A DNA stretch of 23,979 bases. Source: a virus. Positions 2,293-22,523 of this stretch are shown here, one piece after another. Under the pieces are notes generated by a model. That model saw nothing but the letters and a program-made list of their open reading frames with translations, was not told the origin of the DNA and did no database searches. Where the stretch lies: the IMG/VR virus record IMGVR_UViG_3300026519_000570, positions 1-23,979 of that record; one strand, written 5' to 3'. Each line of letters opens with the position of its first letter. Position 1 is the first letter of the stretch. Made by a program: the position numbers and the translations under genes.

Positions 2293-3362
2293 AGTACGGA
2301 AAGTCTGTTTACAAGTCCATGGATGGCATCCTCTCCGAGGATGAACGCATCGTGGGCGGTTTCTTCACGGATGATCTTGTGGACGAGTACGGCCACATGA
2401 TCTCTCGGGAGGCCATGGAGAAGGCGATTGAGGAGTATAAGGAGTGGATGAATATCCGTGATATGCATGGTCGTCCCGTTGGCAAGGCTATCCGTGTTGG
2501 CGGCGAGCCTTGGAACTACATCGAGGCCCAGATCATGGACGACGAGGTCTGGGACCTTGTGATGAAGGGTGTGTACAATGGGTTCAGCGTTGGCATTCTG
2601 GTCACGGATTTTCGCCTTGTCGACCTCGAGGATGTTCCGGAGGAGAAGTTCGCTGGCGTTACCGGTGCGGTCCGAAAGATGGTCGAGGATGTGGGCTTTG
2701 TGGTGGAGATCACGGACTGTGCCCTAATTGAGGTGAGCATCGTGGATCGCCCTGCGAATCCTCGTGCTCGTTTTGCTACTCTGACCAAGTATTTTGGTTC
2801 CGACGGAGAGATTATGGAACTTCCTTCCGTGGATAAGGTTGTGAAGTCCGTCGAGGTCGGGGAAGCGGAGGTTGAAGAGGATGTCGTGGCTGAGGTCCAT
2901 GTTGACGAGAAGGTCGAGATGGAGACTCATGCTGATCCGGCTTACGTTGAGAGCGTGGATGAAAAGGAGGGCGAGAGCGATGATGTGATGGTCTTCGTTG
3001 TTCAGCACGATATGGATGTTCTGAAGGATGTTGTGTCGGAATGTGTTCGTGCTGAGATGTCGGCTTTCGCGGAGAAAATGACCGAGAAGTTCTCCCTTGT
3101 TGTGGATGAGAAGCTCTCGGCTATCTCTGGCGATGAGGATGACGGTGAGATGGAAGCCCTAGATGCGATCGAGGTCATGGCTGCCATCTTCTCAGATGAG
3201 AAGTTCCTCGACACAGTCGCCGACAGGATTGCGAAGAAGCTCCGCGGTGGCCGATCTCGTGTGGCTCGGCGTACTGTCGAGAAGGACACGGAGAAGCAGA
3301 TCTCGGACGGAGATGTCCGTGTCATTGCCGAGCGTGTCGCAAAGATGATTTTTGAATCTTAA
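2289..3362 (+). CDS. Prohead protease (HK97/XkdF-like) with long acidic C-terminal extension
   Basis: The first 165 residues resemble phage prohead serine proteases of the herpesvirus-assemblin fold. They contain RDMHGRPVGK with candidate catalytic His60, NGFSVGILVTD, and EVSIVDRPANPRA with candidate nucleophile Ser150. These match the family pattern 'H...VG', 'GFSVG' and 'E(V/I)S(L/I)VDRPANP'. Such enzymes cleave scaffold and sometimes capsid N-termini inside the immature head. Residues from about 175 to 357 are strongly acidic, then helical and charged, unlike the catalytic part. There is no separate scaffold gene before the capsid gene and the capsid protein lacks a long N-terminal delta-like domain, so this extension may be the fused scaffold (inference). 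The start overlaps the upstream stop as ATGA. Confidence 0.88.
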   Translation: MKYGKSVYKSMDGILSEDERIVGGFFTDDLVDEYGHMISREAMEKAIEEYKEWMNIRDMHGRPVGKAIRVGGEPWNYIEAQIMDDEVWDLVMKGVYNGFSVGILVTDFRLVDLEDVPEEKFAGVTGAVRKMVEDVGFVVEITDCALIEVSIVDRPANPRARFATLTKYFGSDGEIMELPSVDKVVKSVEVGEAEVEEDVVAEVHVDEKVEMETHADPAYVESVDEKEGESDDVMVFVVQHDMDVLKDVVSECVRAEMSAFAEKMTEKFSLVVDEKLSAISGDEDDGEMEALDAIEVMAAIFSDEKFLDTVADRIAKKLRGGRSRVARRTVEKDTEKQISDGDVRVIAERVAKMIFES

Positions 3363-3380
3363 TGTTGGAGGAATGTGAAT

Positions 3381-4673
3381 ATGAGCACGTATATCAAGAA
3401 TGCATTGACTTCGGCGACCGGTTCTGCTCTGTTTCCCGAGGATCTATCGCCCGCCCTTGTTGAATATCTTCAGAAGGCATCTCCGCTCTTCGCTATGCTG
3501 CCGCGGCGTGGTGTGACTTCCACTCCGCACCAGTATGTGGTCCGGACTGCCCTGCCCAATGCTTGGGTTGAGGCGGAGGGCACGGATCCGCAGTTCAGCA
3601 ATAGCAGCTATCAACGGAAGTCGGTGGATATCAAGGTTCTTCGAAGCTGGGGTTCTGTGACCGGATTCACCCAGCGTTTCACGGAACAGTTCATCGATGC
3701 GCTGGCTGCTGAGATCGACGGCAGCATGGCGAGTCTTACGGATGTGTTCGAGAACCAGATTCTGTGGGGTGACACGGCCGATGCCTTGCAGATGAAGGGT
3801 CTCGAGCAGTTCATGCGGGAGGATAGCACGGCTCTGGCGAACAATATCTTCGCTCCGGCTGCTGCGTTGACCCTCTCTGACCTCGACAATGCTCTGGACA
3901 CGGTCGAGGTCTACCGTGGCGTCATGCGGGATCCGAAAGCTTTCGTGATGTCTCCGCAGATGATCAGCCGTGTTACTTCTCTGCTTACTCGGATCCAGCG
4001 GACCGTGTCCGAGGTGGAGATCGAGGGCGGTTTCCGTGTAGCGACCTATCGGGGTGTTCCTCTGCTGCCCAGTGGGTTCGTTCGGCCCGCGAATACCACT
4101 ACTTCTCCTGCTGTAACCGCTACGGCTGCTGCGGGCGGCACGGTTCCGGATGGGACCTACTACTACGCTATCAGCAGCGTGACTATGTACGGGGAGCAGA
4201 CTGTTGGCGCCGAGGCGAATGTGACTCTGGGCACCGGCAACAACACCACTAACTTGACTTGGACCGCGGATCCGAATGCGGTTCTGTACAAGGTGTGGCG
4301 TGGTACCGTTTCCGGCAATCTCGAGCTGCTGGATGTGATCCCTGCCAAGACCTACACCAACGGCGCCCCCACGGGGAATGTCACGTCTTACAGCGATGAT
4401 GGGACCAAGACTCCTGTGGCTCAGATCAAGCCGTTGCAGGTCGTGTCCGGCGTCGTGGATGAGACTGTTTACCTCGTGAATCTGAGTCGGGATCGGGGTC
4501 TCTATCTGGCTGGTGGTGTGTCGCCTCTGGGTGAGCAGACCGAGGAGTTCGTGACCCTGACTCCGCTTGCTACTCGAAAGAGCTCGTTCGATTTCATGAT
4601 TGAGTCCTTCACCGCTCTGGTTGTGCAACAGCCCGTGGTGAATGTCATCATCCGGAACGTGCGAGCTGGCTAA
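3381..4673 (+). CDS. Major capsid protein with inserted fibronectin/Ig-like domain
   Basis: A 430-residue HK97-fold capsid protein follows the protease directly. ATG 3381 is preferred over the in-frame GTG 3375 because GGAGGA (3367-3372) is 8 bases before the ATG and only 2 before the GTG. The core includes LPRRGVTSTPHQYVVRT near the N-terminus, DPKAFVMSPQMISRV in the A/P-domain region and a C-terminal strand. At about residues 243-344 the capsid sequence is interrupted by a beta-rich segment: PDGTYYYAISSVTMYGEQ, then LTWTADPNAVLYKVWRGT, then SYSDDGTKTP. This is the pattern of a fibronectin type III/Ig-like domain, after which the capsid fold resumes at AQIKPLQVV. Surface Ig-like domains on capsids are known and are thought to aid adhesion. 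Confidence 0.9.
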   Translation: MSTYIKNALTSATGSALFPEDLSPALVEYLQKASPLFAMLPRRGVTSTPHQYVVRTALPNAWVEAEGTDPQFSNSSYQRKSVDIKVLRSWGSVTGFTQRFTEQFIDALAAEIDGSMASLTDVFENQILWGDTADALQMKGLEQFMREDSTALANNIFAPAAALTLSDLDNALDTVEVYRGVMRDPKAFVMSPQMISRVTSLLTRIQRTVSEVEIEGGFRVATYRGVPLLPSGFVRPANTTTSPAVTATAAAGGTVPDGTYYYAISSVTMYGEQTVGAEANVTLGTGNNTTNLTWTADPNAVLYKVWRGTVSGNLELLDVIPAKTYTNGAPTGNVTSYSDDGTKTPVAQIKPLQVVSGVVDETVYLVNLSRDRGLYLAGGVSPLGEQTEEFVTLTPLATRKSSFDFMIESFTALVVQQPVVNVIIRNVRAG

Positions 4674-4683
4674 TGATATCGTC

Positions 4684-4715
4684 GGGGGAGGGACGGTTTC
4701 CATCGTCCTTCCCCC
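4684..4715 (+). terminator. Strong hairpin after the capsid gene (attenuator or processing site)
   Basis: GGGGGAGGGACG (4684-4695) pairs with CGTCCTTCCCCC (4704-4715), a 12-bp stem with one G-U pair and an 8-base loop, starting 10 bases after the capsid stop. No U-tract follows, so it is not a classical intrinsic terminator. It could be a partial terminator, an RNA 3'-end stabiliser or a processing site that lets capsid mRNA exceed downstream mRNA. Confidence 0.6.
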
Positions 4716-4732
4716 AGATCCTCCTTGGGGGA
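4710..4732 (+). promoter_or_regulatory. Alternative hairpin covering the next ribosome binding site
   Basis: TCCCCC (4710-4715) can also pair with GGGGGA (4727-4732), the apparent ribosome binding site for ATG 4737, across an 11-base loop. This uses the same C-run as the 3' arm of the larger 4684-4715 hairpin, so the two folds exclude each other. Pairing is seen in sequence; regulation is inference. The upstream hairpin is far longer and would normally win, freeing the ribosome binding site. Confidence 0.3.
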
Positions 4733-4736
4733 CCGA

Positions 4737-5318
4737 ATGGCTTGGGAGATTGTCAGCGCGGACTATGTAGCCGATATGTGTGGCCTGACCGTTCAGGAGT
4801 TGGACGACAGGTGGTACGATTTTGCTGTGGACCTCATCCGTCGTCGTGTCGGAGAGAGTGCCGTACAGCCGGTTCAGGTCACCGAGAAGCTGAATGGGAA
4901 CGGAACTCGCTACATTAGGGTGAGTCGTCCTCCTATTGATTTCGTGTCTCAGCTCAAGGTCGAGGACGCTGTTATACCAAGTAATCTGTACACCAACACG
5001 GAGCTGTACGTCGTCCTCGTGGACAAGATTGCCGTGAATCCGCATGTCGAGATGGATGTGTTTCCCGTCGGCATTGCCAACGTCGAGGTGACGTACACCA
5101 CGAAGGATCCGGACAATGTGGTTGCCAATGCAATCGCGCTGGTGATCAGGGAGTTGGCGACGATCAAGAAGACGCAGGGTGGTCTTGTGAGATTTCAGAC
5201 GTTTGTCTCGGGTGAGAGGAACGAGAATGACCTGAGAGCTCTTTCTCCTGCTGCCCACAAGCGCGTCATCCAGATTGTGGAGTCCCTGCTGCCGAGAGGG
5301 AAGTTCAATGCGCGATGA
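4737..5318 (+). CDS. Head-tail connector (neck adaptor) protein
   Basis: A 193-residue protein sits immediately after the capsid gene, where the adaptor that docks on the portal is normally encoded. ATG 4737 is preferred to the in-frame TTG 4725, since GGGGGA at 4727-4732 serves the ATG with four bases spacing. The N-terminal part (ADYVADMCGLTVQELDDRWYDFAVDLIRRRVG) is helical, like the 'VTLEEAK...' helices of connector proteins. The middle is beta-rich (RYIRVSRPPIDFVSQLKVED, VEVTYTT), followed by a helix NAIALVIRELATI. This arrangement fits gp6/gp15-type adaptors, though without a diagnostic motif. Its end overlaps the next gene by 11 bases. Confidence 0.65.
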   Translation: MAWEIVSADYVADMCGLTVQELDDRWYDFAVDLIRRRVGESAVQPVQVTEKLNGNGTRYIRVSRPPIDFVSQLKVEDAVIPSNLYTNTELYVVLVDKIAVNPHVEMDVFPVGIANVEVTYTTKDPDNVVANAIALVIRELATIKKTQGGLVRFQTFVSGERNENDLRALSPAAHKRVIQIVESLLPRGKFNAR

Positions 5319-5958
5319 TGAAGGGATTGCTGGTCTTGGCAGAAGGATAGCTGAGAGATATGGGGATGAGTTCAAGGGGGCTCTTTCGGGGAGGCTGAGG
5401 CGTGGCTCCATGGTAGCCGTGATGTATGTTTTTGGCGCAAGACGGCTTGCTATCGGCCACGCGATCAGGGAGATCCATCCCAGGGTTGCTCGCCTTGGAC
5501 TGCGCAGGCTGTCTGAGAGGATTGTCAGAGCCATCAGAGTTGCTCTCAGGCCTATAACGAGGAGTGGTAGGCTTGCCAATTCGTTCGGGTGCGATCTGAG
5601 GGAGAACTGGTCCGATATCTACACAACTGAGCCGTATGGTGTGTCCATACTGCCTGATGGCAAGCTGGATGAGGGTATTCCATCCATAGAGGATCTGAAG
5701 GCGTGGGCGAGAAGGAAGCCCGAGTTGAGGGATCTCGACGAGAAGGATTTTGAGAGAACGATGTATGCCATCCAGAGGGCGATTAAGACAAAGAGAGGGC
5801 TTGGGAAGACAGGACGATCCACGCTGGTTGCTTTGCCTCCCAAGGGCAAGCGTGCATACGAGTATCGGGAAGTGGCGTTTTCTCTTGTTGAAAGATCTGA
5901 GGTTGGCGGTACCGACATGGAGAAGGCGTGGGAGGAGGTCCTGAGTGAGTTGGATTGA
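5308..5958 (+). CDS. Neck/tail-completion protein, HK97 gp10-like
   Basis: The 216-residue product starts at ATG 5308 with GAGAGGG (5294-5300) 7 bases upstream; further upstream in-frame starts would overlap the connector gene more. The N-terminal third is rich in arginine. A motif RPITRSGRLANSFG resembles the 'P.DTG.LR.SI' signature of HK97 gp10-like neck proteins, and YGVSILPDG is the kind of beta hairpin that follows it. A segment GIPSIEDLKAWARRK is also familiar from such proteins. It would act at the head-tail joint, stopping DNA leakage or joining the tail. The C-terminus contains a second helical domain. The family assignment rests on motif resemblance only. Confidence 0.6.
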   Translation: MRDDEGIAGLGRRIAERYGDEFKGALSGRLRRGSMVAVMYVFGARRLAIGHAIREIHPRVARLGLRRLSERIVRAIRVALRPITRSGRLANSFGCDLRENWSDIYTTEPYGVSILPDGKLDEGIPSIEDLKAWARRKPELRDLDEKDFERTMYAIQRAIKTKRGLGKTGRSTLVALPPKGKRAYEYREVAFSLVERSEVGGTDMEKAWEEVLSELD

Positions 5959-6373
5959 TCTGGCCAACACGGTCAAGGCGTATATGCAGTCTTATGTGAC
6001 CGGATTGGATGGAGGAAATGTCGTCATTGGCGATGAGCTTGCTGTTGTCAGCGCGATGGCGACCGGCGGGTACAGCGTGGGTTGCGTAGTTGCTTATGAC
6101 ACGGCCGATTCCGTTGGAAGTCGTTTTGTCGATAGGCGCATGATCTACTCTGTGATGGCCAACGTGTTCTCCGAGGTAGATGGGTCTGATCTGGTTGGAG
6201 CGTATAGCAGGGCCGTGTCCATGGTGCAGGAAGCGTTAGACAACATCAGTTCCTCTGGGATGTTCAAGAACTACGTGGTGCGCAGGGTTGGGGCAGGTCC
6301 TGTGATCCAGTACGTTCGCAGTGACCGTTACTACTACGTCGTTCCCATAGACTTTCAGGTGGAGACAGGATGA
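5945..6373 (+). CDS. Tail terminator-like / minor capsid protein
   Basis: The 142-residue gene starts with GTG, supported by GGAGGAGG (5931-5938) six bases before, and overlaps the preceding gene by 14 bases. It has a helical N-terminus (WIDLANTVKAYMQSYV), a central helix (DLVGAYSRAVSMVQEALDNI) and a C-terminal beta strand pair (RYYYVVPIDFQVETG). A small alpha/beta protein ending in a 'V.FQV..' strand, just before the tail genes, fits tail-terminator proteins that cap the tail tube and join it to the head. No residue-level signature proves this, and a second neck protein is the alternative. Confidence 0.55.
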   Translation: MSWIDLANTVKAYMQSYVTGLDGGNVVIGDELAVVSAMATGGYSVGCVVAYDTADSVGSRFVDRRMIYSVMANVFSEVDGSDLVGAYSRAVSMVQEALDNISSSGMFKNYVVRRVGAGPVIQYVRSDRYYYVVPIDFQVETG

Positions 6374-6723
6374 TGAAAAACAAGAAGAAGGGCAAGAAGA
6401 GGGGTAAGAAGAAGAAGAAATCTGCTGGTGATACTATGGATGGGATCGAAGCGATTCGTGCCGTTCTGCGTGGCGAGGACGTTGTGTTTGATGAGGTGAC
6501 GGTTGATCCGACTCCGTGGCCCATGCACATGGTTGGACCGAAGTTTCACCGTGTGGTGGCAGAGGGCGGCATCCTGAGGATCCATGTGGATCTGGGTACG
6601 GATGACGATCTCTTCGTGGGCTTTGAGCGTGTGGACGAGGACGGGGACTACATTGTGTACAGGAGGCTAGGCGCTGATGCGAACGATGGTGGTGGCCCCG
6701 GGGCCGACGACGAGTACATTTGA
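6370..6723 (+). CDS. Hypothetical protein with lysine-rich N-terminus
   Basis: The 117-residue protein begins with an extreme basic tract (MMKNKKKGKKRGKKKKK); the corresponding DNA is an almost pure purine run. The remainder is acidic and beta-prone, ending in a Gly/Asp-rich tail. AGGTGGAG (6357-6364) lies five bases before ATG 6370 and eight before ATG 6373; either could be used. The basic tract could bind DNA, RNA or an acidic protein partner. Its last 47 bases overlap the glycosyltransferase gene, suggesting the two are co-translated. No family is recognised and the function is unknown. Confidence 0.6.
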   Translation: MMKNKKKGKKRGKKKKKSAGDTMDGIEAIRAVLRGEDVVFDEVTVDPTPWPMHMVGPKFHRVVAEGGILRIHVDLGTDDDLFVGFERVDEDGDYIVYRRLGADANDGGGPGADDEYI

Positions 6724-7723
6724 CATATATTGGTACACGCTGAGAGCTCTGGACAGGCTGGATGTTGATTCCTTTGGGTTCGCTTCACATTCACGCATTA
6801 CGTACCATCAGATTGGAAAGAGGTCAATAGAGGATCTCGGCCTCAGCTACACGGTGAGCGTAATTGGTTCTACGGTGATGGATGTGTTGGGGGCTGTGGC
6901 GGATACGCTTCCCGATGTAGTTCATGTGGTGGATGGGAGCTTGTTCGGTCATCACCTGATGGCCCGCCTGAGAAGGCTGTCTGAATCCATGGCGGATCCG
7001 TTCGTTGTCTCCATACACATGACGGAGGAGCCGTACAGTGCCACGGGATTCGAGGATATGCGCAAATACGCGCATGTGGTCTTTGTGAACGATGCCTATG
7101 CGGTGTCTGAGTTCGATCCCGACGGATCCAAGATGGTCTACTGGATGCCGCACGCCTATGATCCGGAGGTCCATAGTCCAAATTTGGACTATGACAGCAA
7201 GGACATCGATCTGCTCTTTGTAGGCACCGTATATCCCGAGAGAGTTCCGTATCTGAAGGCGGACTGGGGGGATATGGTGTGCGTCTTTGGTGGATCTGAT
7301 CTGGGAAACGATGTTGATCTTTCCTTTGGCAACGTGTCCAACGACGAGTTGGCTAAGCTGTATCGGAGGTCGAAGATCTGTTTGAACAAGCACAGGGAGA
7401 TGGGCTCTGTGCTGGATGAGTCGCAGACGTATAGGTATCCGCCGCACGCTGTCTCCCCGAGGGTTGTGGAAGCTATGGCTTGCGGTTGTGTTGTGTTGAC
7501 TGATCACAGGCCTGAGCTAGATGAGATTGGGAAGGATGCCGTGCTGTTGTACAGCAATGTGGAGGATGCTGTTGGGCTTGCGAGGGACGTTGTCCAAGAC
7601 AGGGATGCTTGGACGGATATAGCGCGTAGGGCGAGGAGCGCGATCGAGAGCAGAAAGTACGACACGAACGTATCTCGGATGTTGGATATTTGGGATGATG
7701 CACTGAAGTTGTTGAGGAGGTAG
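6677..7723 (+). CDS. GT-B glycosyltransferase (CgeB / Glyco_trans_1-like)
   Basis: This 348-residue enzyme has the layout of a GT-B glycosyltransferase, which moves a sugar from a nucleotide donor to an acceptor. The N-terminal half contains Rossmann-like strands (PDVVHVVDGSLFGHHLM, PFVVSIHM, HVVFVND). The C-terminal half has DIDLLFVGTVYPER, the short helix DELAKLYRRSKICLN and the signature SPRVVEAMACGCVVLTD (around residues 260-276, with Glu265). It ends in a helix-rich tail (ARRARSAIESRKYDTNVSRMLDIWDDALKLL), all typical of CgeB-like and GT4-like families. AGGAGG (6661-6666) supports ATG 6677. Unusually, it lies between the tail terminator and the tail tube gene. The likely acceptor is therefore a virion protein, but a host surface polymer cannot be excluded. 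Confidence 0.85.
   Translation: MRTMVVAPGPTTSTFDIYWYTLRALDRLDVDSFGFASHSRITYHQIGKRSIEDLGLSYTVSVIGSTVMDVLGAVADTLPDVVHVVDGSLFGHHLMARLRRLSESMADPFVVSIHMTEEPYSATGFEDMRKYAHVVFVNDAYAVSEFDPDGSKMVYWMPHAYDPEVHSPNLDYDSKDIDLLFVGTVYPERVPYLKADWGDMVCVFGGSDLGNDVDLSFGNVSNDELAKLYRRSKICLNKHREMGSVLDESQTYRYPPHAVSPRVVEAMACGCVVLTDHRPELDEIGKDAVLLYSNVEDAVGLARDVVQDRDAWTDIARRARSAIESRKYDTNVSRMLDIWDDALKLLRR
7172..7193. repeat. Perfect 22-bp palindrome within the glycosyltransferase gene
   Basis: The half-site CATAGTCCAAA (7172-7182) is followed without any gap by its exact reverse complement TTTGGACTATG (7183-7193). No base is mismatched. It lies in frame through the codons for HSPNLDY. A perfect 22-bp dyad is not expected by chance in 24 kb. 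It could be a protein-binding site or an RNA/DNA cruciform element; the function is unknown. Confidence 0.9.
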
Positions 7724-7726
7724 AAT

Positions 7727-8125
7727 ATGGCAGTCACCGGTGGCGAGAATGCCCTTGTCTACGTGGGTGGTGTGGAGATGCCTCAGCGAAATAGCTGGAG
7801 TCTCGACATCAGCCGCGAGTACCGTGAGGCTCGTGTTTTCACGTCTAATCCTGCCGCGGGGAGTTGGACGGATCAGATCCCTGGGTATCGCTCTTGGAGT
7901 GGTTCCATCGATGGGTACTACGACAATGCGGATGAGTCCCCGATCACCGCTGCGTTTGCCAACACCGCTGCGCAGATTGTCCTGTACGAGGACCGAAACA
8001 ATCTGAACAAGTATTGGTACGGCAATGCTTTCGTGGACATGAGCGAACAGGTTCCTGCGGATGATTTCGTGACCTTGAGCTTGTCCTTCACGGGGACTGG
8101 GCAACTGACTCGAATCTCGATGTAG
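7727..8125 (+). CDS. Major tail tube protein
   Basis: A 132-residue protein with GAGGAGG eight bases before the ATG, four bases after the glycosyltransferase stop. The sequence is beta-rich: NSWSLDISREYREARVF, then PGYRSWSGSIDGYYD, and a closing VTLSLSFTGTGQL. The pattern 'SI..D....(E/D)V..F........P..(R/K).WSGS..GYYD' is common in siphovirus tail tube proteins, which stack as hexamer rings around the tape measure. Length and position, directly before the chaperone pair, fit well. It has no appended Ig-like domain, unlike many tail tube proteins. It is also a plausible acceptor for the sugar transferred by the adjacent enzyme (inference). Confidence 0.85.
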   Translation: MAVTGGENALVYVGGVEMPQRNSWSLDISREYREARVFTSNPAAGSWTDQIPGYRSWSGSIDGYYDNADESPITAAFANTAAQIVLYEDRNNLNKYWYGNAFVDMSEQVPADDFVTLSLSFTGTGQLTRISM

Positions 8126-8774: not shown

Positions 8775-11700
8775 ATGGCATCCAACCAGAAGAACGTCGT
8801 CATCAGTATTGTAACCAAGTCCAACTTGGCTGGCGTTGATAACCTTGTCAAGGGTTTCAACAGGCTGAGATCTGCTGGGGATAAGGCTCGCAGTGGCTTG
8901 GACAGGGTCGCGATGAGCACAGAGAAGCTCGGACGCGGCTTTGTCAGCATGAATGCCGTGTTGGACAAGGTGGATGCTGGACTGAGGAGATTTCGGTCCA
9001 CGTTGCACGATGTGTTTGGCGGCGTTCGCATGGTTGGTCAGGCGTTGCAGAATGCGGGCGTTATGTTGTCCGTGTTCGTGACGCTTCCTCTTCGATCTTT
9101 CCTGCAGTCATCCATCAACCTGATGCTGGATTTCGACGAGGTGCTGATCGAGATCCGGAAGGCTGCGGGTTTGACAACTGACGAGATGAGGAAGCTCGGG
9201 GATGCATTGACGCAGATGTCTGCTACGGTTCCTCAGACTGTGGTAGAGCTCGGCAAGATGGCTGAGATGGCGGCTCGCCTTGGTCTCAGAGGCACAGCGG
9301 CTCTGACAGCGTTCACGGATGTGGTAGCCAAGCTCGAGGTGGCTACGGACCTTGAGGCCGAGGATGCTGCCAAGGCCCTTGCTCGTCTGACCGCTCTGTT
9401 CTACAGGGGGGCGAAGAGCGGGGAGGAATACTATCGTTTCCTGAACGCTGTAGGCAGTGCCTTGAATGAGGTGGGTCAGGCCACTGCGGCGACCGAGTCG
9501 CAGATTCTGTCCGCTGTGGTGCGTGCTGCTCCTGCTGCCGCGGCCATCGGGATGCCCGTGGAGCAGTTGATCGGCCTTGCGGGTGCCGTGGTCGAGACGG
9601 CTGCCAGCGCGGAGCGTGGTGGCACTCAGTTGAACAGGGCGCTATCCGAGCTAGCGACCAATGCGGTGGATGTGGGCAAGGCGGTCGGATTGCCTGTAGA
9701 GCAGTTCAGGGCGCTGATAGATGAGAATCCTACTGAGGTCTTCTTGGCTGTAGCCGAGGCAATCGGCAACATCGAGAGCGAGTCTTTGCGAGCGGCTGCG
9801 GCGGCTCAATTGTTCGGCGAGACGGGCGCGAAGATCGTCTCCATTATGGCTGCTGCTGGCACGGGCGTGGATCGGGTCGCCGAGAAGATACGGATATCCG
9901 AGAGCGCCTTTGCAGATGCGACATCGCTCCAGATTGAGTTCTCGAGGGCGATGGATGGCGTGAAGAACCAGCTCAAGCTGCTGCGGAACAACATCAACCT
10001 GTTGTCCATCTCCATTGGCAAGGTTCTTCTTCCCCAGATCACCAAGATCCTCACCTATGCGGTTCCGGCCGTTCGCGAGCTGGCTCGTCGCTTCGAGATG
10101 TTGAGCGAGGAGACCAAGCTTGCCGTGGTTGGGTTCACTCTGTTGGCCACGGTTCTGGGACCGCTGATGCTGGCATTTGGTTCCACGCTGTTCTTCCTCG
10201 GCATGATGGCGTCTGGCTTTGTGGCCTTGGCCAGCGCCATGTTCTCCATCATGACTCTGCCCATCCGTCTGGCTGGTGTGGTGGGCGTTCTGATCAATGT
10301 CGTTGGCGGACTTCCTGTAGCTCTGGTCGCTGCTGCTGCTGCTATCCTCATGTTCAGCGACAGCGCGAGGAATTTGTTCTTTGGCTTCATCCGCAATATG
10401 TTTGTCTGGGGAAGCAACGCTGCCACGGCATTCGCGGATGGATTCTCGTCTGCTGTGCAGTATGCAATTGGCGTGGTGCAGCAGTTCTTGGAAGCCATTG
10501 CGAGATTTTTCAGGGCTGAATCGCCTCCCAAGGAAGGTCCTCTCTCTGAGATCGATGAGTGGGGCAGGAGGACTGCAGAGGCGTTCGTCGAGGGATTTGC
10601 GTCTGCCAGCGTGGATGGCATCATACGTTATGCTGGAATTGTCAGCGAGGCGTTTGAGAGGTCATTGCGACAGATGCCTCTGGAGTGGGGAGATGCGTTT
10701 GGCAGGCTGACATCAATTGTTCGCACGGCTGCCTCGGCGGTAGCTCGTCTCAATAGGATGAAGCCGGATGAAGCTGGCAAGAACGTCGCCAAAGCCATTG
10801 AGGGGATCGGTGAGCTTGTCGGTGCAATAACTGGCGCTGGGATCAGCGTGGACAGTGCTTGGGCGAAGGTCAGTGGAGCGGTTGGGCAGTTCGCTGAGGA
10901 TATACGCACCGCGATAGGACTGCAATCAGATCTCGTCTCGGAAACCAAGCGTCTCGCCGAAGTGCGTCGTGAACTCGAGGAGATCGACCAGCGCTTGCAG
11001 GATGAGATCCTCGAGATATCTCAGCGACGTGATCTGACATTGGAGGAACGTGCTGCCTTAATCCGTCAGGCCAAGATCCGTGCGGCGGCACGTAAGAGAC
11101 AGCTCAGGGATGAGGAGAAGGCTGCCGAGGAGCGCGTCGATGTGCTCCGCGACGAGCTGCGCAAGGTGGAACAGATTATCGAGACCATTGCGCAGATGAT
11201 CCAGCAAGCGACCAAGGCTGCCGTTGCCAAGGTCGAGAAGCCCAAGGTGGATGACATCATCCCCATTGACGGATTCGAGTTCTCCCTGGGTAGGTTGAAG
11301 GACATCCTCGCCGAGCCCTTTGAGTTTGCGACCGAGGAGGTCGGTCGTTTCATGCAGAAGGTTGCGGAGGCGGAGGCGAAGGTGAAGTCCTTCATTGCGG
11401 GACTCATGAAGGAGGATCCTCTCTCTGCTGTCCTTGGTATCTCGGATGAGGATGCCGAGAAGCTGAGGGAAATGCTTCCTGCGGAGGACATCGAGGGCAT
11501 TCTTGAAGGATCTGGTTTCTCTGAACTGTTCTACGAGAAGGGCCTCGAGCTTCGTCGCCGGATTGACGGCATTGTTAGATCCGTGATGGACTTTGTCGAT
11601 GTGATCAGGGATCTCAAGGATCTCTTCAGCGATGGGCAATGGATCGAGTTGCTGGAGAGAGCCATGGATGCCATGTCAGGTGGGGAGGACGGCGGAGACA

Positions 11701-13691
11701 CGTCAGTCAACATCAGCGATATTGCGAAGGCTCTCGGCGCCTTATTTGGTGCGTTGTTCCTCTACAAGACTCTCCGTTCCAGCATTGGAATGCTGATCTC
11801 CATCTGGAATGTCCTGAAGTGGCTGGGTGGCTTGGGCATGTTCTTGGGCAGGGTTACGGGCATCGGCAGGTTCTTGGGGATGTTGTGGACCGGAGTTAGA
11901 GCGTTTGGTGGGTTCGGCGTCCTGTTTGGCATGTTTGTCCTGCGTGGTGTTCTGTCCTTGCTCGCTGGTATTGGCAGATTGGGTCTTGGTGCGCTGGTGT
12001 GGATCGGCAGGCTTCTGTACGGCGGATTGGCTTGGATTGTGTCGGGTATCATATTGTTCGCGAGATCCTCGGTCGTCTTCGGGCTGGGTGTCATGAACGC
12101 AGTGATATCCGTCGTCAGCAGGATTGCAGGACTGGGTTGGAGAGCCCTGCTGGGTACCGGCGGCGCGTTGCTCGCTATCGGTCGTGGAGTAGGTTCTATA
12201 TTGGCTGCGTTTGGCATAGGAGGCTCTCTTGCAACTGCATTTGGACTGCTGATATTTCTGGCTGCGCTGGCTGGATGGTTCAAATTTCAGTGGCCTGATC
12301 TCAAGGACAGCATAGATGAGTTCAGGGATGGTTTAACTAACTTGGTCGACACGATAATCGGCAAGAGCGATGAGACCCTTGAAAGTGCGAGCGAGAGTCT
12401 GGCGAAAGCGTTCGGCAGGTTGCAAGGCAGTATAATGAAGACCATTTTCTTTGCCGGCAATCCTTTGGCCGGTGTTGCGGCCAAGTTTGGCACCGATCTT
12501 GCTATTGCTGTATACGAAGGACTGAAGGAAGGCGACCTGAAGGGAAAGGTCAAGAAGGCTGTTGAGGATGCGATCACGGGTGGCGAGGGGGATTCTCCCT
12601 TGAATAAGGCGAGAAGAGCTTGGTACGATCTCGCTATCGCCATGTGGGAAGGTTTCAAGGAAGGAGATATAGGTGGCAAGCTGAAGAAGTGGCGGGACAA
12701 CTTGTTCGGCATCGGCGGCGGTGGAGTTGGAGGAGGCGGAAAGGGCGGATTTGGTGGACCGGATGCTCGCAAGAGCGGGTTGTTGGCTGCTGGATCCATC
12801 TTCGCTGGGATGAAGGACTGGTTTTCGAGAAGGAAGCAAGATATTGAGGATTTCGGGAAGTCTTTCTCCGAGACCGTTGTAGGAGGATTCAAGAACTGGC
12901 TGAATGAGAGATACGAGGAGTTCTCTGCGTTCATCGATGCGATTGTGGAGTGGTACAGGGGAGATGGCGAGTCCGGCCTTGACGAACAAGGTCGTATCAT
13001 TGCTCAGGCCATCTTGGCCGGAATTGTTGCGCTCATAACCGGAAATTACACAGCTTTCGGTGCCATACTCGGTGCTCTGATTGATTGGTATGAGGAATCA
13101 AAGTCTGATATTGAGAACAGGTCCAAGGGCATCGGTGTTACAATTATCGGTGGGATCACTGGCAAGATATGGGAACTCAGGAATGCGTTCGCCATCATAG
13201 CCGCTTCATTCTCGGATTGGTGGACTCGTTTCAAGGAGGATCCGACCAATATTATATTGACCGCTGCCAGCGATCTGGGCGAAGCGATTGTGGATTGGAT
13301 CAAGTCTGGCATCAGTTCTGCTTGGCAGGGCTTTATCACTTGGCTGGGTCAGAAGATAAAGGATGCAATAAGTAGGATTATCAACGATAACATCCCGAAA
13401 GGAGATGATGGAGGAGACGGGGGTGGCGGCGGAGGCGGTGGTGGAGGCGGCTTTGGCGGTCGCAGCAAGAGGGCCGTTCCTCCGGTCGGACTAGGTGAAA
13501 AGGATGGATTGATTGGCGCGTTGGAACCTGCGTCCATTGGCTCGTTGTTGGCTCCGGATGTGAGCAAGCCGGATAGGGCTCGCGATGGCGTTGTGGTGAA
13601 CATGGTGAACAACTTCTACGTGGATGACGATGTGGACATCGAGGAAGCAGCGAGGAAGATCTCTAGGCAGATCCTCTTGGCAGGAGCGTAG
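8775..13691 (+). CDS. Tail tape measure protein
   Basis: At 1638 residues this is the largest gene and sets tail length; the common rule of about 0.15 nm per residue implies a tail near 245 nm. The N-terminal third matches the TP901-type tape measure domain: DFDEVLIEIRKAAGLTTDEMRKL, TAATESQILSAVVRAAPAAAAIG, then ERGGTQLNRALSEL and FGETGAKIVSIM, ending LLRNNINLLSISIG. A hydrophobic stretch follows (about 447-523), then SPPKEGPLSEIDEWGRR, a motif often seen in tape measures. A long charged coiled coil covers about 717-815. A second, very long Gly/Leu-rich hydrophobic block covers about 988-1170. Two near-identical 21-residue repeats and a poly-glycine linker (about 1549-1565) precede the C-terminus. 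Confidence 0.95.
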   Translation: MASNQKNVVISIVTKSNLAGVDNLVKGFNRLRSAGDKARSGLDRVAMSTEKLGRGFVSMNAVLDKVDAGLRRFRSTLHDVFGGVRMVGQALQNAGVMLSVFVTLPLRSFLQSSINLMLDFDEVLIEIRKAAGLTTDEMRKLGDALTQMSATVPQTVVELGKMAEMAARLGLRGTAALTAFTDVVAKLEVATDLEAEDAAKALARLTALFYRGAKSGEEYYRFLNAVGSALNEVGQATAATESQILSAVVRAAPAAAAIGMPVEQLIGLAGAVVETAASAERGGTQLNRALSELATNAVDVGKAVGLPVEQFRALIDENPTEVFLAVAEAIGNIESESLRAAAAAQLFGETGAKIVSIMAAAGTGVDRVAEKIRISESAFADATSLQIEFSRAMDGVKNQLKLLRNNINLLSISIGKVLLPQITKILTYAVPAVRELARRFEMLSEETKLAVVGFTLLATVLGPLMLAFGSTLFFLGMMASGFVALASAMFSIMTLPIRLAGVVGVLINVVGGLPVALVAAAAAILMFSDSARNLFFGFIRNMFVWGSNAATAFADGFSSAVQYAIGVVQQFLEAIARFFRAESPPKEGPLSEIDEWGRRTAEAFVEGFASASVDGIIRYAGIVSEAFERSLRQMPLEWGDAFGRLTSIVRTAASAVARLNRMKPDEAGKNVAKAIEGIGELVGAITGAGISVDSAWAKVSGAVGQFAEDIRTAIGLQSDLVSETKRLAEVRRELEEIDQRLQDEILEISQRRDLTLEERAALIRQAKIRAAARKRQLRDEEKAAEERVDVLRDELRKVEQIIETIAQMIQQATKAAVAKVEKPKVDDIIPIDGFEFSLGRLKDILAEPFEFATEEVGRFMQKVAEAEAKVKSFIAGLMKEDPLSAVLGISDEDAEKLREMLPAEDIEGILEGSGFSELFYEKGLELRRRIDGIVRSVMDFVDVIRDLKDLFSDGQWIELLERAMDAMSGGEDGGDTSVNISDIAKALGALFGALFLYKTLRSSIGMLISIWNVLKWLGGLGMFLGRVTGIGRFLGMLWTGVRAFGGFGVLFGMFVLRGVLSLLAGIGRLGLGALVWIGRLLYGGLAWIVSGIILFARSSVVFGLGVMNAVISVVSRIAGLGWRALLGTGGALLAIGRGVGSILAAFGIGGSLATAFGLLIFLAALAGWFKFQWPDLKDSIDEFRDGLTNLVDTIIGKSDETLESASESLAKAFGRLQGSIMKTIFFAGNPLAGVAAKFGTDLAIAVYEGLKEGDLKGKVKKAVEDAITGGEGDSPLNKARRAWYDLAIAMWEGFKEGDIGGKLKKWRDNLFGIGGGGVGGGGKGGFGGPDARKSGLLAAGSIFAGMKDWFSRRKQDIEDFGKSFSETVVGGFKNWLNERYEEFSAFIDAIVEWYRGDGESGLDEQGRIIAQAILAGIVALITGNYTAFGAILGALIDWYEESKSDIENRSKGIGVTIIGGITGKIWELRNAFAIIAASFSDWWTRFKEDPTNIILTAASDLGEAIVDWIKSGISSAWQGFITWLGQKIKDAISRIINDNIPKGDDGGDGGGGGGGGGGGFGGRSKRAVPPVGLGEKDGLIGALEPASIGSLLAPDVSKPDRARDGVVVNMVNNFYVDDDVDIEEAARKISRQILLAGA
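12495..12689 (+). repeat. Tandem 21-residue repeat in the tape measure
   Basis: DLAIAVYEGLKEGDLKGKVKK (12495-12557, residues 1241-1261) and DLAIAMWEGFKEGDIGGKLKK (12627-12689, residues 1285-1305) align without gaps at 15 of 21 positions, all differences being mild except Lys/Gly. They are 44 residues apart start to start. Codons differ at many identical positions, so the duplication is old. Confidence 0.7.
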
Positions 13692-17075: not shown

Positions 17076-20000
17076 ATGCCTGCATTGACTATTCCCAAGC
17101 TTGTTGAGAAACTACGATCTTATTTCATGTATGCTCGTGGCGACACCCAGATAGGTGGCAACATCACGCCGGATGCGGACAAGGCGTACAATATAGGTTC
17201 TCCGAGTAGAAGGTTGAGCGTCATCTACGCGGACACGGTGGATGCGAACGTCAGTGCGGGGACGTTTTCCGGATCTACGTGGTCCCATCCTGGGGATATG
17301 ACCATTGATCCTAAGGTGGACAATGCGACCACGACCCTTTTCGTCTTAAACAGTGGCGTAGGGGGCGTAGCAAACTTGAATGTGGAGAACGACATCATCG
17401 TTGGCGGTCTTGTGGACGGGGTCGATGTTGCTTCGCTAAAATCCTCTTATGATTCGCATGTTGCCAGTGCGGATTCACATCATAATGCCTTTGTCGGCCT
17501 GAAGGATGATGTGGGCAGCACGGTGTCTCCGGATCCGTCCGACCTGATACAGATTGTGGGTGGAAATGGACTCTCATCTGTCGCAGGAGCGAGCACGCTC
17601 ACCTTGTCGGTCAATGTCGGCGATGGGATCCAGATTGTGTCCGATGCAGTAGCCGTGGATTCCACCGTGGTTCGCACGTCGAGGCAGGTGATTGCGGGTC
17701 AAGGTCTCGTCGGTGGGGGATCTCTTTCTGCCGATGTGACCTTGGATGTGAATGTCGGAGCGAGCCTCCAGATTGTCTCGGATGCGGTGCAGGTCAATCA
17801 GGGATACTCGTTCAACTGGTCTGCGGTGCATAACTGGGGCGGCGGTGTGTCGTTGGATCCTGCTGGAGCTGTGTCTGCCCCTGGGAGCCTGCGGATCAAC
17901 ATTGACAGTGACAACAACACAACGAACGCCGCGCTGGTATTCGGAAAGGACGGAGGAGGCACTTTATCCACAGAGATTGGACGGATCAGCGAGAACGGCG
18001 ACTTCTCTGTGTCACGAGATATCCGCACGGGACGCTACTATCTCACTCCTGCTGGCGATATATGGGCTCGTTTCACGGATGAGCTGAGCGGCGATGCTTC
18101 CTACATCGGCGCAGGCGGTTTGACTGTCATCGGTGGAGGAGAATCGGCGAGTGCTGTGTTGAGTGGCGGAGGTATAGCGGGTTCGTCCGAACGCCTTGTT
18201 CTCGCGTCGGATGTGACGGGGGCAGGCGAGGCAATCCGATTTGTGACATCGCTCCAGAATGGGTGGGCGAGCAGGGTGGACGCCGTGTCCATCCTAGGTG
18301 ATGGCAGAGTAGGCATAGGTACATTGACGCCAAACGTGCAGCTTGACGTTGTTGGCTCTGTCAACATCAGTAATGCCTTGGGCGTGAATGGCGCGGCGGA
18401 CATTGCCGAGGATCTGACCGTAGGTGCGGCTTACTCCACACCCGGGGTTCTCTTTGTTGACGTGTCGCAGCAGAACGTTGGGATCAACCGTGCGCCTGAT
18501 AACCAGTTTGCGTTGGATGTGAGTGGTCCTGCGCGGGCGGATTGGTGGGTGGGTCCTCATGCGTTGCAGCTCAGCGATGCGAAGATGATCGTGCATTTCG
18601 ATGGACCGTTGCCGTATGAAGAGGATTTTACGGGATTTGCTGTGGGTCATGCAGGGCAGCAGCCGAACCATAGCAGCAATACGCAAGTATATCGCCCAGG
18701 GAAGTTCGGCAAGGCGTTGCAGATTGCGGTTGGGACGAAGAATTTGATTCCGAATCCTGTGTTTGGCTACGATGACCCTCCTGTGAGCAACGGTCCGGTT
18801 GCTGGCTGGAATTTTGCCAATGCGTATGGTGGCGTGGTCAGCTACGGCACTACATCTGAGCGAAGATTATTTGGGAAGTATTCTGCATTTCAGGAGTTGG
18901 ATGGTACGCAGACGGGTTATGTTGGGATTGCAACAACCGCAATCTCTGATCCTAGTATTGTGAGCGGAGCCGTCTTTGTTCAGAGTGGATGGGTGTTTTT
19001 TGACTCATACATGTCTCACATATACTTGATTCTTCGTTGCTACGACTCATCCGGCAATTTCATATCTGACCTAACTAAGACATATTATCCTCCAGATATC
19101 AAGTCTGGAGAGTGGAATTTTGTCTACATATATGGGACATTGCCTGTTGGTACGTCTAAAGTGAGTTGTCAATTCAGGATTCCACCTGATTATGTGGGCA
19201 AGGTGTATTTTGATGGTGCTCAGCTTGAGAACAAGCCGTACACAACCCCTCTCGCTTATGGGGATATGCCGAACCATTCTTGGGCTGGTACTCCGCATCT
19301 ATCTGCTTCCACTCGAACTGACTATTCTATTCAGTATGCGGATATGGAGCTAAGAGTTCCGTTCACGGTTGCTGGATGGTTTGGCTACGCCCATGATGTA
19401 CAGGCTGAGCCGACTGGATCGCAGGGCGATAGAAGGCATTTCTTCATTGCGACTCCAGACAGATCTACAAGCATCACTGTGTACATGAATGACGGCGATC
19501 AACCGTATGCGTTGGCTACCGGAGAAACTGTTGCCCTGAATGGAGGAGATGGGAACACTTGGCCTGCTTACACGTGGAAGCATTGGGCCATCACTGTGGA
19601 TGGATCTGGCAATGCTACTCTTTACTTGGATGGCACTCAAGTTTCGACAGCTTCGTGGCCGAGCACGAAGAGTGTTGTGTATGATATCATAGAGATTGGC
19701 TATTTCCCAGGGGGAGGATACACACACAATGGATGGGTAGATGATCTTGTCGTGTTGGATCGTGCGGCTTCTGCTGATGAGATCCGTGCCATATACGAGT
19801 CCAATGCTCCTGTATTTGCGGAATCCAGTGTTTTTGCGTTTCGTGCACCAGCGAGGGAGTTTTTATGGGTCGACGATGAGGGAATGTGGGCGCGATTGGA
19901 GAATGGACGTGGGGCTTTCGGCTTATACTTGGGGGATGCTACCAAGAGCTGGGCTGGTTTGACATTGGATCCAGGGGATCTTGTCATTGGTGATGCGAGT

Positions 20001-20993
20001 ATTGTTGGTGGAGGGTATATTCACTTCAAGCCTTCCACAGGAAGCATGTCCATTGTCGGAGATGGATCTGGTATTACCAACATCGACGGCGGAAATATAC
20101 AGACGAGAACGATTACGGCAGATAAGATCGTGTCGAATTCTCTCACATCCGCGGAGATTGCTGCAGGAGCGATTACGACATCTGAGCTAGCTGCGAATTC
20201 CGTGACATCTGACAAGATAAATGTTGCCCAATTGTCAGCAATCTCCGCTGACATGGGATTGCTGAACGCGGGAGAGATTAGGATTGGCACCGGAACGATT
20301 GGTTCGAATTTCACGGGTCATCGTTTCTGGACAGATACGAGCGGCGTTGGTAGAATTGCTGGGTATAACAACAATGTGATTCAGTGGGAAGGCGCAACAG
20401 ATGGGAAACTGAAAGCTGGATCTGGGTCTGTGGTAGCAGATTCTTCTGGTCTCTCTCTATTCAGTGGGGGGACTAAGATAGCAGAGCTTGACTCCGATGG
20501 ATTGAGCTTTCTAAGAGGATCTGGGCACATATATTGGCTTGTTGATCCAGAGAGCACTTGGGCCGGTCAAGGAGAGATAAGGGTGCGTGGCCTAGATGAC
20601 CTCGGGACTCTGTCTACCAAATTGCACATTGAAGCCATTGGGAATCCAGATATAGGATACGAACACAAAGGGAGATTTGAGGTTACTGTCAAAGCGTACA
20701 ACGAGGATGTATCTGACACTGGAGTATTGTACTTGGAGAGCGGGAGGGGGGTTTACGGTGGCGCGCCAAAGTTTGATGTGAATTTGCAGGCTGGGAGCAT
20801 GGTTGTAACTTCTCGTAGCTCGACATGGAGTGGGCCCAACAACACTGTGCACTATTTCAATCTGAACGGTATCATTGATTTCAAATGGTCAATGGGGGAT
20901 AGTTCAAAGGATCCGAGATCCGTTGTGCCGGATGATTGGGTGGAAGTTAGAATAGGCGGCACAACGTATTATTTGCCGGCGTATCTGGTGTGA
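17076..20993 (+). CDS. Tail fibre / receptor-binding protein with nested CBM-LamG modules
   Basis: A 1305-residue fibre. The N-terminal part has YNIGSPSRRLSVIYADTVDA, a familiar fibre start, then beta repeats: GDGIQIVSDAVAV and GASLQIVSDAVQV. From about residue 505 (IVHFDG) a LamG-like fold starts. It is interrupted at about 554-727 by a CBM4/9-like sandwich (NLIPNPVFG ... YVGKVYFDGAQLENKPYTTP), then resumes at about 728-910 with PFTVAGWFGY, WKHWAITVDGSGNATLYLDG and DDLVVLDRAASADEIRAIYE. Around 1012-1054 a ten-residue-period repeat appears: ITADKIVSNS, LTSAEIAAGA, ITTSELAANS, VTSDKI. The C-terminal 190 residues are probably the tip. It likely binds cell-surface carbohydrate. The ribosome binding site is weak and the start is one base after the hub stop. 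Confidence 0.85.
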   Translation: MPALTIPKLVEKLRSYFMYARGDTQIGGNITPDADKAYNIGSPSRRLSVIYADTVDANVSAGTFSGSTWSHPGDMTIDPKVDNATTTLFVLNSGVGGVANLNVENDIIVGGLVDGVDVASLKSSYDSHVASADSHHNAFVGLKDDVGSTVSPDPSDLIQIVGGNGLSSVAGASTLTLSVNVGDGIQIVSDAVAVDSTVVRTSRQVIAGQGLVGGGSLSADVTLDVNVGASLQIVSDAVQVNQGYSFNWSAVHNWGGGVSLDPAGAVSAPGSLRINIDSDNNTTNAALVFGKDGGGTLSTEIGRISENGDFSVSRDIRTGRYYLTPAGDIWARFTDELSGDASYIGAGGLTVIGGGESASAVLSGGGIAGSSERLVLASDVTGAGEAIRFVTSLQNGWASRVDAVSILGDGRVGIGTLTPNVQLDVVGSVNISNALGVNGAADIAEDLTVGAAYSTPGVLFVDVSQQNVGINRAPDNQFALDVSGPARADWWVGPHALQLSDAKMIVHFDGPLPYEEDFTGFAVGHAGQQPNHSSNTQVYRPGKFGKALQIAVGTKNLIPNPVFGYDDPPVSNGPVAGWNFANAYGGVVSYGTTSERRLFGKYSAFQELDGTQTGYVGIATTAISDPSIVSGAVFVQSGWVFFDSYMSHIYLILRCYDSSGNFISDLTKTYYPPDIKSGEWNFVYIYGTLPVGTSKVSCQFRIPPDYVGKVYFDGAQLENKPYTTPLAYGDMPNHSWAGTPHLSASTRTDYSIQYADMELRVPFTVAGWFGYAHDVQAEPTGSQGDRRHFFIATPDRSTSITVYMNDGDQPYALATGETVALNGGDGNTWPAYTWKHWAITVDGSGNATLYLDGTQVSTASWPSTKSVVYDIIEIGYFPGGGYTHNGWVDDLVVLDRAASADEIRAIYESNAPVFAESSVFAFRAPAREFLWVDDEGMWARLENGRGAFGLYLGDATKSWAGLTLDPGDLVIGDASIVGGGYIHFKPSTGSMSIVGDGSGITNIDGGNIQTRTITADKIVSNSLTSAEIAAGAITTSELAANSVTSDKINVAQLSAISADMGLLNAGEIRIGTGTIGSNFTGHRFWTDTSGVGRIAGYNNNVIQWEGATDGKLKAGSGSVVADSSGLSLFSGGTKIAELDSDGLSFLRGSGHIYWLVDPESTWAGQGEIRVRGLDDLGTLSTKLHIEAIGNPDIGYEHKGRFEVTVKAYNEDVSDTGVLYLESGRGVYGGAPKFDVNLQAGSMVVTSRSSTWSGPNNTVHYFNLNGIIDFKWSMGDSSKDPRSVVPDDWVEVRIGGTTYYLPAYLV

Positions 20994-21206: not shown

Positions 21207-21321
21207 TTGTGTTTCCAACTATGGGCAGTGTTTCTTCTCTTGGCAGACGGAAGCAGATGAGGATGGGCTCGTCTTCTACGGCGAGCTCGTGTATGACTGT
21301 CAGGTCGAATTGGAGGAATGA
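21157..21321 (+). CDS. Short lipoprotein (spanin- or exclusion-like)
   Basis: A 54-residue protein starts inside the coiled-coil gene in another frame, with GGAGGG (21146-21151) five bases before the ATG. The start MKTLAVTMVAASIFLSSC is a lipoprotein signal: basic n-region, hydrophobic core, and lipobox Leu-Ser-Ser-Cys with Cys18 as the modified residue. The mature part is 37 residues, acidic, with two more cysteines able to form a disulfide. The stop overlaps the next ATG (TGATG). Known phage lipoproteins of this size act as outer spanins or as superinfection-exclusion factors. Neither can be chosen from the sequence. In-frame longer starts (for example 21064) lack a signal peptide at their N-terminus and are disfavoured. 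Confidence 0.7.
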   Translation: MKTLAVTMVAASIFLSSCVSNYGQCFFSWQTEADEDGLVFYGELVYDCQVELEE

Positions 21322-22523
21322 TGGCTAGGGACCACAAGTTTGCTGCACATCTGATTCCGACGCACTGGGGACAGAGGGATGAGGAGCACCTATCCCGTAT
21401 TGCTCCCAAGAGCATCAAGATCATTGACCGATTTGAGAGGGTGCCGTTGCTGTACCGTCTTTCTCCGAATTCGATCATCGTGTACAGGGATCATCCTTTG
21501 TCGGAGCAGCACGATGATATGATGAGGGATCCGGAGGGAACCGGAAAGCGTCACGCCGCTGAATGGGCCGAGAAACTTGCTCGGTGGCGGCATCCTGTAC
21601 CTGATGAGCAGGTCGTTGTGTTGGGCATCAATGAGCCGAGGGTGTGGGATGATCCAGATCCGAAGCGATTTGGCAGTCCTTACGCGCAGGGCGTGTATAG
21701 GACTGTTGAGTACACCGTTGCGTTTCTGGATGCGTTGACCAAGCTCGGTATTCGTGGCGGGGCACTCAACTTGAGCGTGGGCTGGCCTGCTAATAGTGGC
21801 AAGGATATGCCGCCTGTGTGGGAACCATATCGTCCCGTGTACGATTCGATCCGCAAGGGTCAACACATCCTGTTTTTGCATGAGTATTGGCCTCATCAGG
21901 GACCTGAGATGCATCTGGGTTGGATGGCGGGGCGTGCTCTCAAGTGTCCTTGGGATGTCCCTATCATCATCGGAGAATGTGGCCTTGAGGAGCGCGTGAC
22001 ATCGCCGAACGTGCCTCCGTCTCGCTGGGGATGGAAGGGTTGGCTGACACCCGAGCAATACATGGATCAGCTCTGGCGGTATCATGACATCATGAACGAC
22101 AGGAGGATCCACAGCTTGCAGATCTTCACATGGGACTTCTCTCAGCCCTTTGGCTCGCTGGACATCCGTGACATGCTGGATTTGATCCCCGAGAACAGTG
22201 CTTGGGACAATGCTATATGGGACTACGGCGGCACGAGGCCGCCTGGGGATGCGGTTCCTATTCCTCCGGATCCATCCTTGGCTCAGGTTCTTGTGTCGAG
22301 AGCGCAGGAGGAACAGGTGATTCGTTTCAATCCAAACGCTGCATTGCAGAAGAGCATCTTTGCTGACGGCTATGTGCCCAACTCTCCCGAGTTCGAGGTT
22401 GACCATCGTGGACAGGTCTACGTTGCCCAGCGTGCCGAGCACATGGGCACGGGAGATGTCCGTGTCTACTACGTGCCGAAGTTCGAGTGGGACAAGGTGG
22501 AGTATATCGATGCAGATGTGTAG
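21321..22523 (+). CDS. TIM-barrel glycoside hydrolase-like protein (probable lysin or depolymerase)
   Basis: The 400-residue protein has the layout of a clan GH-A (beta/alpha)8 glycoside hydrolase. VVVLGINEPRVWD places an Asn-Glu-Pro motif (Glu105, candidate acid/base) at the end of a strand, as on strand 4. HILFLHEYW follows. DVPIIIGECGLEE places Glu219 (candidate nucleophile) as on strand 7, and SLQIFTWDF fits strand 8. Two glutamates about 114 residues apart are usual for the clan. Residues after about 310 form a proline-rich linker and a small C-terminal domain. There is no signal peptide. GGAGG lies 4 bases before ATG 21321 (only 1 base before ATG 21318). It probably cuts a cell-wall or capsule polysaccharide, during release or entry; the substrate is unknown. 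Confidence 0.75.
   Translation: MARDHKFAAHLIPTHWGQRDEEHLSRIAPKSIKIIDRFERVPLLYRLSPNSIIVYRDHPLSEQHDDMMRDPEGTGKRHAAEWAEKLARWRHPVPDEQVVVLGINEPRVWDDPDPKRFGSPYAQGVYRTVEYTVAFLDALTKLGIRGGALNLSVGWPANSGKDMPPVWEPYRPVYDSIRKGQHILFLHEYWPHQGPEMHLGWMAGRALKCPWDVPIIIGECGLEERVTSPNVPPSRWGWKGWLTPEQYMDQLWRYHDIMNDRRIHSLQIFTWDFSQPFGSLDIRDMLDLIPENSAWDNAIWDYGGTRPPGDAVPIPPDPSLAQVLVSRAQEEQVIRFNPNAALQKSIFADGYVPNSPEFEVDHRGQVYVAQRAEHMGTGDVRVYYVPKFEWDKVEYIDADV

Follow-up and report, generated by a model that had tools for sequence, protein, structure and literature searches.

The window, by which we mean the whole stretch of DNA analysed here, is the complete 23,979-base IMG/VR record IMGVR_UViG_3300026519_000570, a genome fragment running from the portal gene to the fibre gene and beyond. 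Among its structural genes a glycosyltransferase (GT) gene directly precedes a tail tube gene, in the following setting:

3375–4673, plus strand: major capsid protein (phrog_752, E 1.5e-14) with an Ig-like insertion at about residues 235–345, recognised by eye
4725–5318, plus strand: head-tail adaptor (phrog_442, E 7e-8)
5945–6373, plus strand: 142-aa ORF at the tail-terminator position (gene order only)
6370–6723, plus strand: 117-aa ORF with a lysine-rich N-terminus, overlapping the GT start by 47 nt
6661–6666, plus strand: Shine-Dalgarno sequence AGGAGG of the GT gene, within the preceding ORF (from the sequence)
6677–7723, plus strand: CgeB/YkvP-like GT-B glycosyltransferase, 348 aa (PF13524, alignment, AF2, Foldseek)
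7454–7504, plus strand: donor-site motif SPRVVEAMACGCVVLTD of the GT, residues 260–276, containing P261, R262, E265 and G270
7714–7720, plus strand: Shine-Dalgarno sequence GAGGAGG of the tail tube gene, in the final GT codons (from the sequence)
7727–8125, plus strand: major tail tube protein, 132 aa, the putative acceptor (phrog_1407, E 1.9e-19; AF2 and Foldseek)
8775–13691, plus strand: tape measure protein (TIGR01760, E 5e-31)

The GT reading frame, already recognised at 6677–7723 in a preliminary description of this DNA, is confirmed. Its 348 codons compare with 182 for the longest stretch lacking a stop among 200 shuffled sequences, and the start is backed by a family alignment, in which the conserved residues P8, G9, S13 and D16 lie downstream of it, as well as by the Shine-Dalgarno sequence. 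GC content, GC3 and codon likelihood of the gene are those of its neighbours, indicating long residence in the operon and not a recent insertion. The GT stop codon lies 3 nt before the start of the tail tube ORF, whose AlphaFold model matches the monocin tube (3e-8), lambda gpV (9e-6) and the SPP1 tube in Foldseek searches; this ORF is a genuine tail tube by both PHROG and fold. The earlier placement of the GT between terminator and tube genes therefore stands on the tube side, while the terminator has no homology support in the window, where the 117-aa ORF lies directly upstream. Judging from gene order, the 142-aa ORF at 5945–6373 is presumably the gene that had been called a terminator; it gave no PHROG or profile match to a terminator family and no detectable homologue, and a family search likewise gave no match for the ORF at 6370–6723.

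The window capsid is nearest to those of Leptospira phages LE3 and LE4 (29% identity to LE4), which gives no support to an actinobacterial kinship of this phage, although the capsid of one relative (L095) is actinophage-like. Elsewhere in the window, a small ORF at 1729–1980 overlaps the portal 3' end and has weak zinc-ribbon matches, a 1305-aa fibre-like protein (17076–20993) carries a Laminin_G_3 domain at residues 760–903, and a 401-aa ORF (21318–22523) has by eye the look of a glycoside-hydrolase TIM barrel, with no match to any family, PDB sequence or cultured phage.

The product of the GT gene is an intact GT-B glycosyltransferase of the CgeB/YkvP-like family, as judged by sequence and predicted fold. 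It matches Pfam PF13524 (Glyco_trans_1_2) with an E-value of 8.3e-18 and 65.2 bits, against a gathering cut-off of 25, and also has a weak DUF3880 match. Its AlphaFold model (mean pLDDT 92.7, pTM 0.91) comprises the two Rossmann-like domains of the GT-B fold; the closest PDB folds found by Foldseek are retaining GT-B enzymes such as MshA, BshA and PimA, and the BFVD matches are annotated as YkvP/CgeB glycosyl transferase-like proteins. The earlier assignment to a GT-B enzyme of CgeB type is thus borne out by profile and structure alike. Cellular CgeB-like GTs share the PF13524 domain and are colinear with the window protein along its whole length at about 20–24% identity. The viral clade stands apart from them in having its own D16, TExPY and HAYDPxxH motifs and, unlike the cellular members seen, in being linked to a tube gene. 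More remote comparisons include T4 alpha-glucosyltransferase, a DNA-modifying enzyme that shares the GT-B fold but only about 10% identity and has a different gene context, and staphylococcal SdgB, a protein glycosyltransferase that appears at rank 48 of the fold matches but is larger, 11% identical and directed at a different acceptor.

An alignment of 87 viral GTs contains 15 invariant residues (D16, T116, E117, P119, Y120, H166, R189, G206, Y229, N237, R240, P261, R262, E265 and R278), and all 15 are present in the window protein. Its donor-site residues are intact, including Y229, N237, R240, P261, R262 and E265 as well as R278 and E280 just after the SPRVVEAMACGCVVLTD motif, from which we infer that the protein transfers sugar. 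It has no hydrophobic segment resembling a membrane helix, the maximum 19-residue Kyte-Doolittle value being 1.46.

Relatives of the window GT are public contigs, mostly uncultivated, and those of viral origin were recovered by profile searches only; single-sequence searches of viral contigs with the family GT P0001, the window portal and the window capsid returned nothing, nor did a strict SPRVxEAMACG DNA pattern. A first profile, built from the window GT and nine cellular relatives, retrieved 16 viral loci, the best of which have a tube homologue directly downstream of the GT. A second profile, built from five viral GTs, retrieved 170 viral relatives, of which 80 were kept. Loci were picked by GT sequence and never by neighbourhood, and neighbourhoods were scanned for tubes with an HMM made from six of them. 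A tail tube homologue lies downstream on the same strand in 85 of 88 GT loci. Because some contigs were fetched twice, we also give counts by cluster, which are 66 of 69 at 95% identity and 50 of 53 at 70% identity; since tube-linked loci supplied the query GTs, the pairing holds for this GT subfamily. The gap between the two genes has a median of 30 nt and is within 100 nt at 69 loci. The contig ends just after the GT in two of the three loci where no tube was found (L040 and L089), and the third (L044) keeps the terminator-GT-tail gene order with no detected tube. A PHROG tail terminator precedes the GT in L037, L044 and L145, and each of twelve larger records (37–122 kb) encodes exactly one GT of the family. 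More distant CgeB-like GTs (L027, L030–L036) occupy other contexts, several of them also in structural operons. Those of L031–L036 form a different CgeB-like group downstream of terminase-, portal- and gp10-like genes, some with an epimerase-like gene.

The reciprocal search, started from six tubes, gave the same result. Among the best 80 of 176 tube loci, the GT lies upstream of the tube in all 79 informative cases, the remaining locus (L130) having too little upstream sequence. In a second tube search around L028, covering 13 loci, the GT is present beside all ten tubes at least 33% identical to that of L028 and absent beside the three most distant ones (L208–L210; IMG/VR contigs, 23–27% identity). 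The remote tubes of RcRhea, HTVC026P and SG586P1 (Rhodobacter, Pelagibacter and Streptococcus phages) also lack a GT, as does the tube of Gordonia phage ThankyouJordi, which shares 41% capsid identity with L095. The GT-less remote tubes instead adjoin a connector, terminator or other small gene. These neighbourhoods indicate that the usual order is terminator or connector followed by tube, and that the GT is an insertion between them. Losses of the GT may occur among deeper tubes beyond the best 80 of 176.

Several relatives carry sugar-tailoring genes near the pair, as would be expected of a system that makes a tailored glycan. In L145 an epimerase/dehydratase gene lies immediately upstream of the GT, an order repeated in L159; L095 has an island of a GT2, an NAD epimerase and a TOD1/MUCI70-like GT (3307–6112) between an HK97-type capsid gene and the tail genes; and methyltransferase genes neighbour the pair in L026, L038, L200 and L202. 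Two loci encode fusions directly upstream of the tube, each in a single ORF: a methyltransferase joined to the CgeB-like GT (L204, 1207–2802) and a weak GT2-like domain joined to the CgeB-like GT (L201, 643–2412). The tube stays next in line despite the methyltransferase, epimerase and endonuclease-like genes found around or within the pair in some relatives. The endonuclease-like case is a DUF559/restriction-endonuclease-like ORF placed between GT and tube in L202 (3107–3991). In L026 the tail tube at 4376–5428 bears a C-terminal LamG (concanavalin-like lectin) domain and is followed by a second tube copy that lacks it (5535–5921).

GT and tube distances are correlated (r = 0.80; best of 1000 permutations, 0.26), consistent with co-divergence as a linked unit, although linkage alone could produce such a correlation. 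In the GT tree the window protein falls inside the viral clade (99/99 support) on a long branch, and in the tube tree the window tube branches between GT-linked and GT-less tubes. Because the window tube groups with GT-less tubes, the pair may have had a separate, second origin in the window lineage, but the unrooted tree is also compatible with one gain. The simplest reading is that the pair arose once and that the window is a deep branch.

The GT-tube pair thus recurs in more than 50 uncultivated lineages, counts that do not represent independent events because the adjacency could stem from one insertion in an ancestor and its inheritance thereafter, and it occurs in no cultured phage searched (tblastn, 50,697 records). 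In that search P0001 gave two weak matches only (E 9e-3), in two records of one Acinetobacter phage, and two other family GTs and one family tube gave none. No member of the family was found in the plasmids searched. Profile searches of 399 Pseudomonadota genomes and single-sequence searches of 395 Desulfobacterota genomes found cellular CgeB-like GTs only and no prophage with the GT-tube pair. No paper on GT-tail tube pairing was found in the literature collection searched.

We hypothesize that the GT is a dedicated virion glycosyltransferase whose acceptor is probably the tail tube. As a cytosolic, nucleotide-sugar-dependent GT-B enzyme devoted to virion decoration, it would be translated from the late structural operon immediately ahead of its likeliest acceptor and would attach at least one sugar to tube subunits, either ahead of tail polymerisation or while it proceeds, yielding a glycosylated tail. 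In many relatives the neighbouring epimerase, methyltransferase and extra GT genes would probably make or tailor the glycan. The proposal draws on the reciprocal pairing without loss among the close tubes, the invariant active site, a predicted cytosolic enzyme and putative acceptor made in sequence from one operon, and the precedent of the mycobacteriophages. The reciprocal linkage makes a virion target, and the tail tube in particular, the best explanation, so that the interpretation in the preliminary description is partly supported. Among the tubes, Ser and Thr positions are common, but no Ser, Thr or Asn acceptor is universally conserved. Two tyrosines, Tyr87 and Tyr96, are nearly universal candidates but may have a structural role, and a different virion protein encoded in this operon could be the acceptor instead.

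The precedent itself differs in arrangement. According to PMC12363180, PMC12619734 and PMC11600133, which cite Freeman 2023, mycobacteriophage GTs glycosylate the C-termini of the capsid and tail tube proteins. From the same sources, Che8 (gp108-110), Corndog (gp38) and Myrna resemble the window in encoding their own GTs for virion decoration, which includes the tail tube there and putatively does so here, and in Corndog-like phages a methyltransferase gene accompanies the virion GTs, as in some relatives of the window. Unlike the window enzyme, however, the GTs of Che8 and Myrna are not of the CgeB family, in that their records contain no PF13524 match. By our own reading of the sequences, Che8 gp108-110 look like other GT types, and they are encoded at the right genome end and not at the tube, whereas the window has one GT-B enzyme fixed beside the tube gene. 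No CgeB-type GT was found in LE4, the closest capsid relative.

It is rather unlikely that the GT acts mainly on another virion protein, such as the capsid, a fibre or the tape measure, with its place beside the tube reflecting operon position only. Such a role would accord with the modification of capsid as well as tube by mycobacteriophage virion GTs (PMC12363180), with the location of the Che8 GTs at the far right genome end, and with the LamG domain of the window fibre and the Ig-like insertion of the window capsid. Against this, linkage is specific to the tube gene even where extra genes surround or interrupt the pair, and the capsid Ig-like domain, which had been put forward as a target, is unsupported because linkage is to the tube and not to the capsid.

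We give little credence to alteration of a host surface glycan late in infection, whether to exclude superinfecting phages or to mask a receptor. Phage GTs that convert the host serotype are well known, and two cellular relatives (L117 and L118) have further GT-like genes as neighbours; the obligate tail tube pairing, the late-operon position, the absence of a hydrophobic segment from the GT and a window in which no flippase or membrane partner was seen all point elsewhere. Glycosylation of phage DNA, as performed by the T4 alpha- and beta-glucosyltransferases, is very improbable. T4 AGT (1y6f) is among the fold matches and a diversity of phage GTs act in DNA hypermodification (Pyle 2024, as cited in PMC12619734), but the fold match is generic to GT-B enzymes, the gene is linked to the tube rather than to nucleotide metabolism, and this genome fragment contains no base-modification gene within the window. 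That the protein is only an assembly factor or a passenger (moron) settled next to the tube, with no relevant catalysis, would fit a single ancestral insertion with vertical inheritance but is scarcely credible given the invariant donor-site residues and the absence of loss among the 79 close tube loci (best 80 of 176).

If the glycosylation of tail tubes proposed here is real, then, given that over 50 uncultivated lineages carry the pair, sugar-decorated tails would be common in environmental phages and would bear on how these phages adsorb, are recognised by immune systems and interact with their hosts. To our knowledge, virion glycosylation has been shown in a few mycobacteriophages only. 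We tentatively suggest, as a bolder and doubtful extension, that these phages form a large and as yet uncultured group in which the tube GT is never lost, tube glycosylation is obligate for tail assembly or function and no mere optional coat, and variable tailoring enzymes create lineage-specific tail glycans. The pair makes the question directly testable, with one enzyme, one small candidate acceptor and two adjacent genes. A possible route to a cultured host is offered by L159 (IMGVR_UViG_2933731626_000001), a 37-kb record that carries the GT-tube pair and whose identifier, by our own reading, looks isolate-type.
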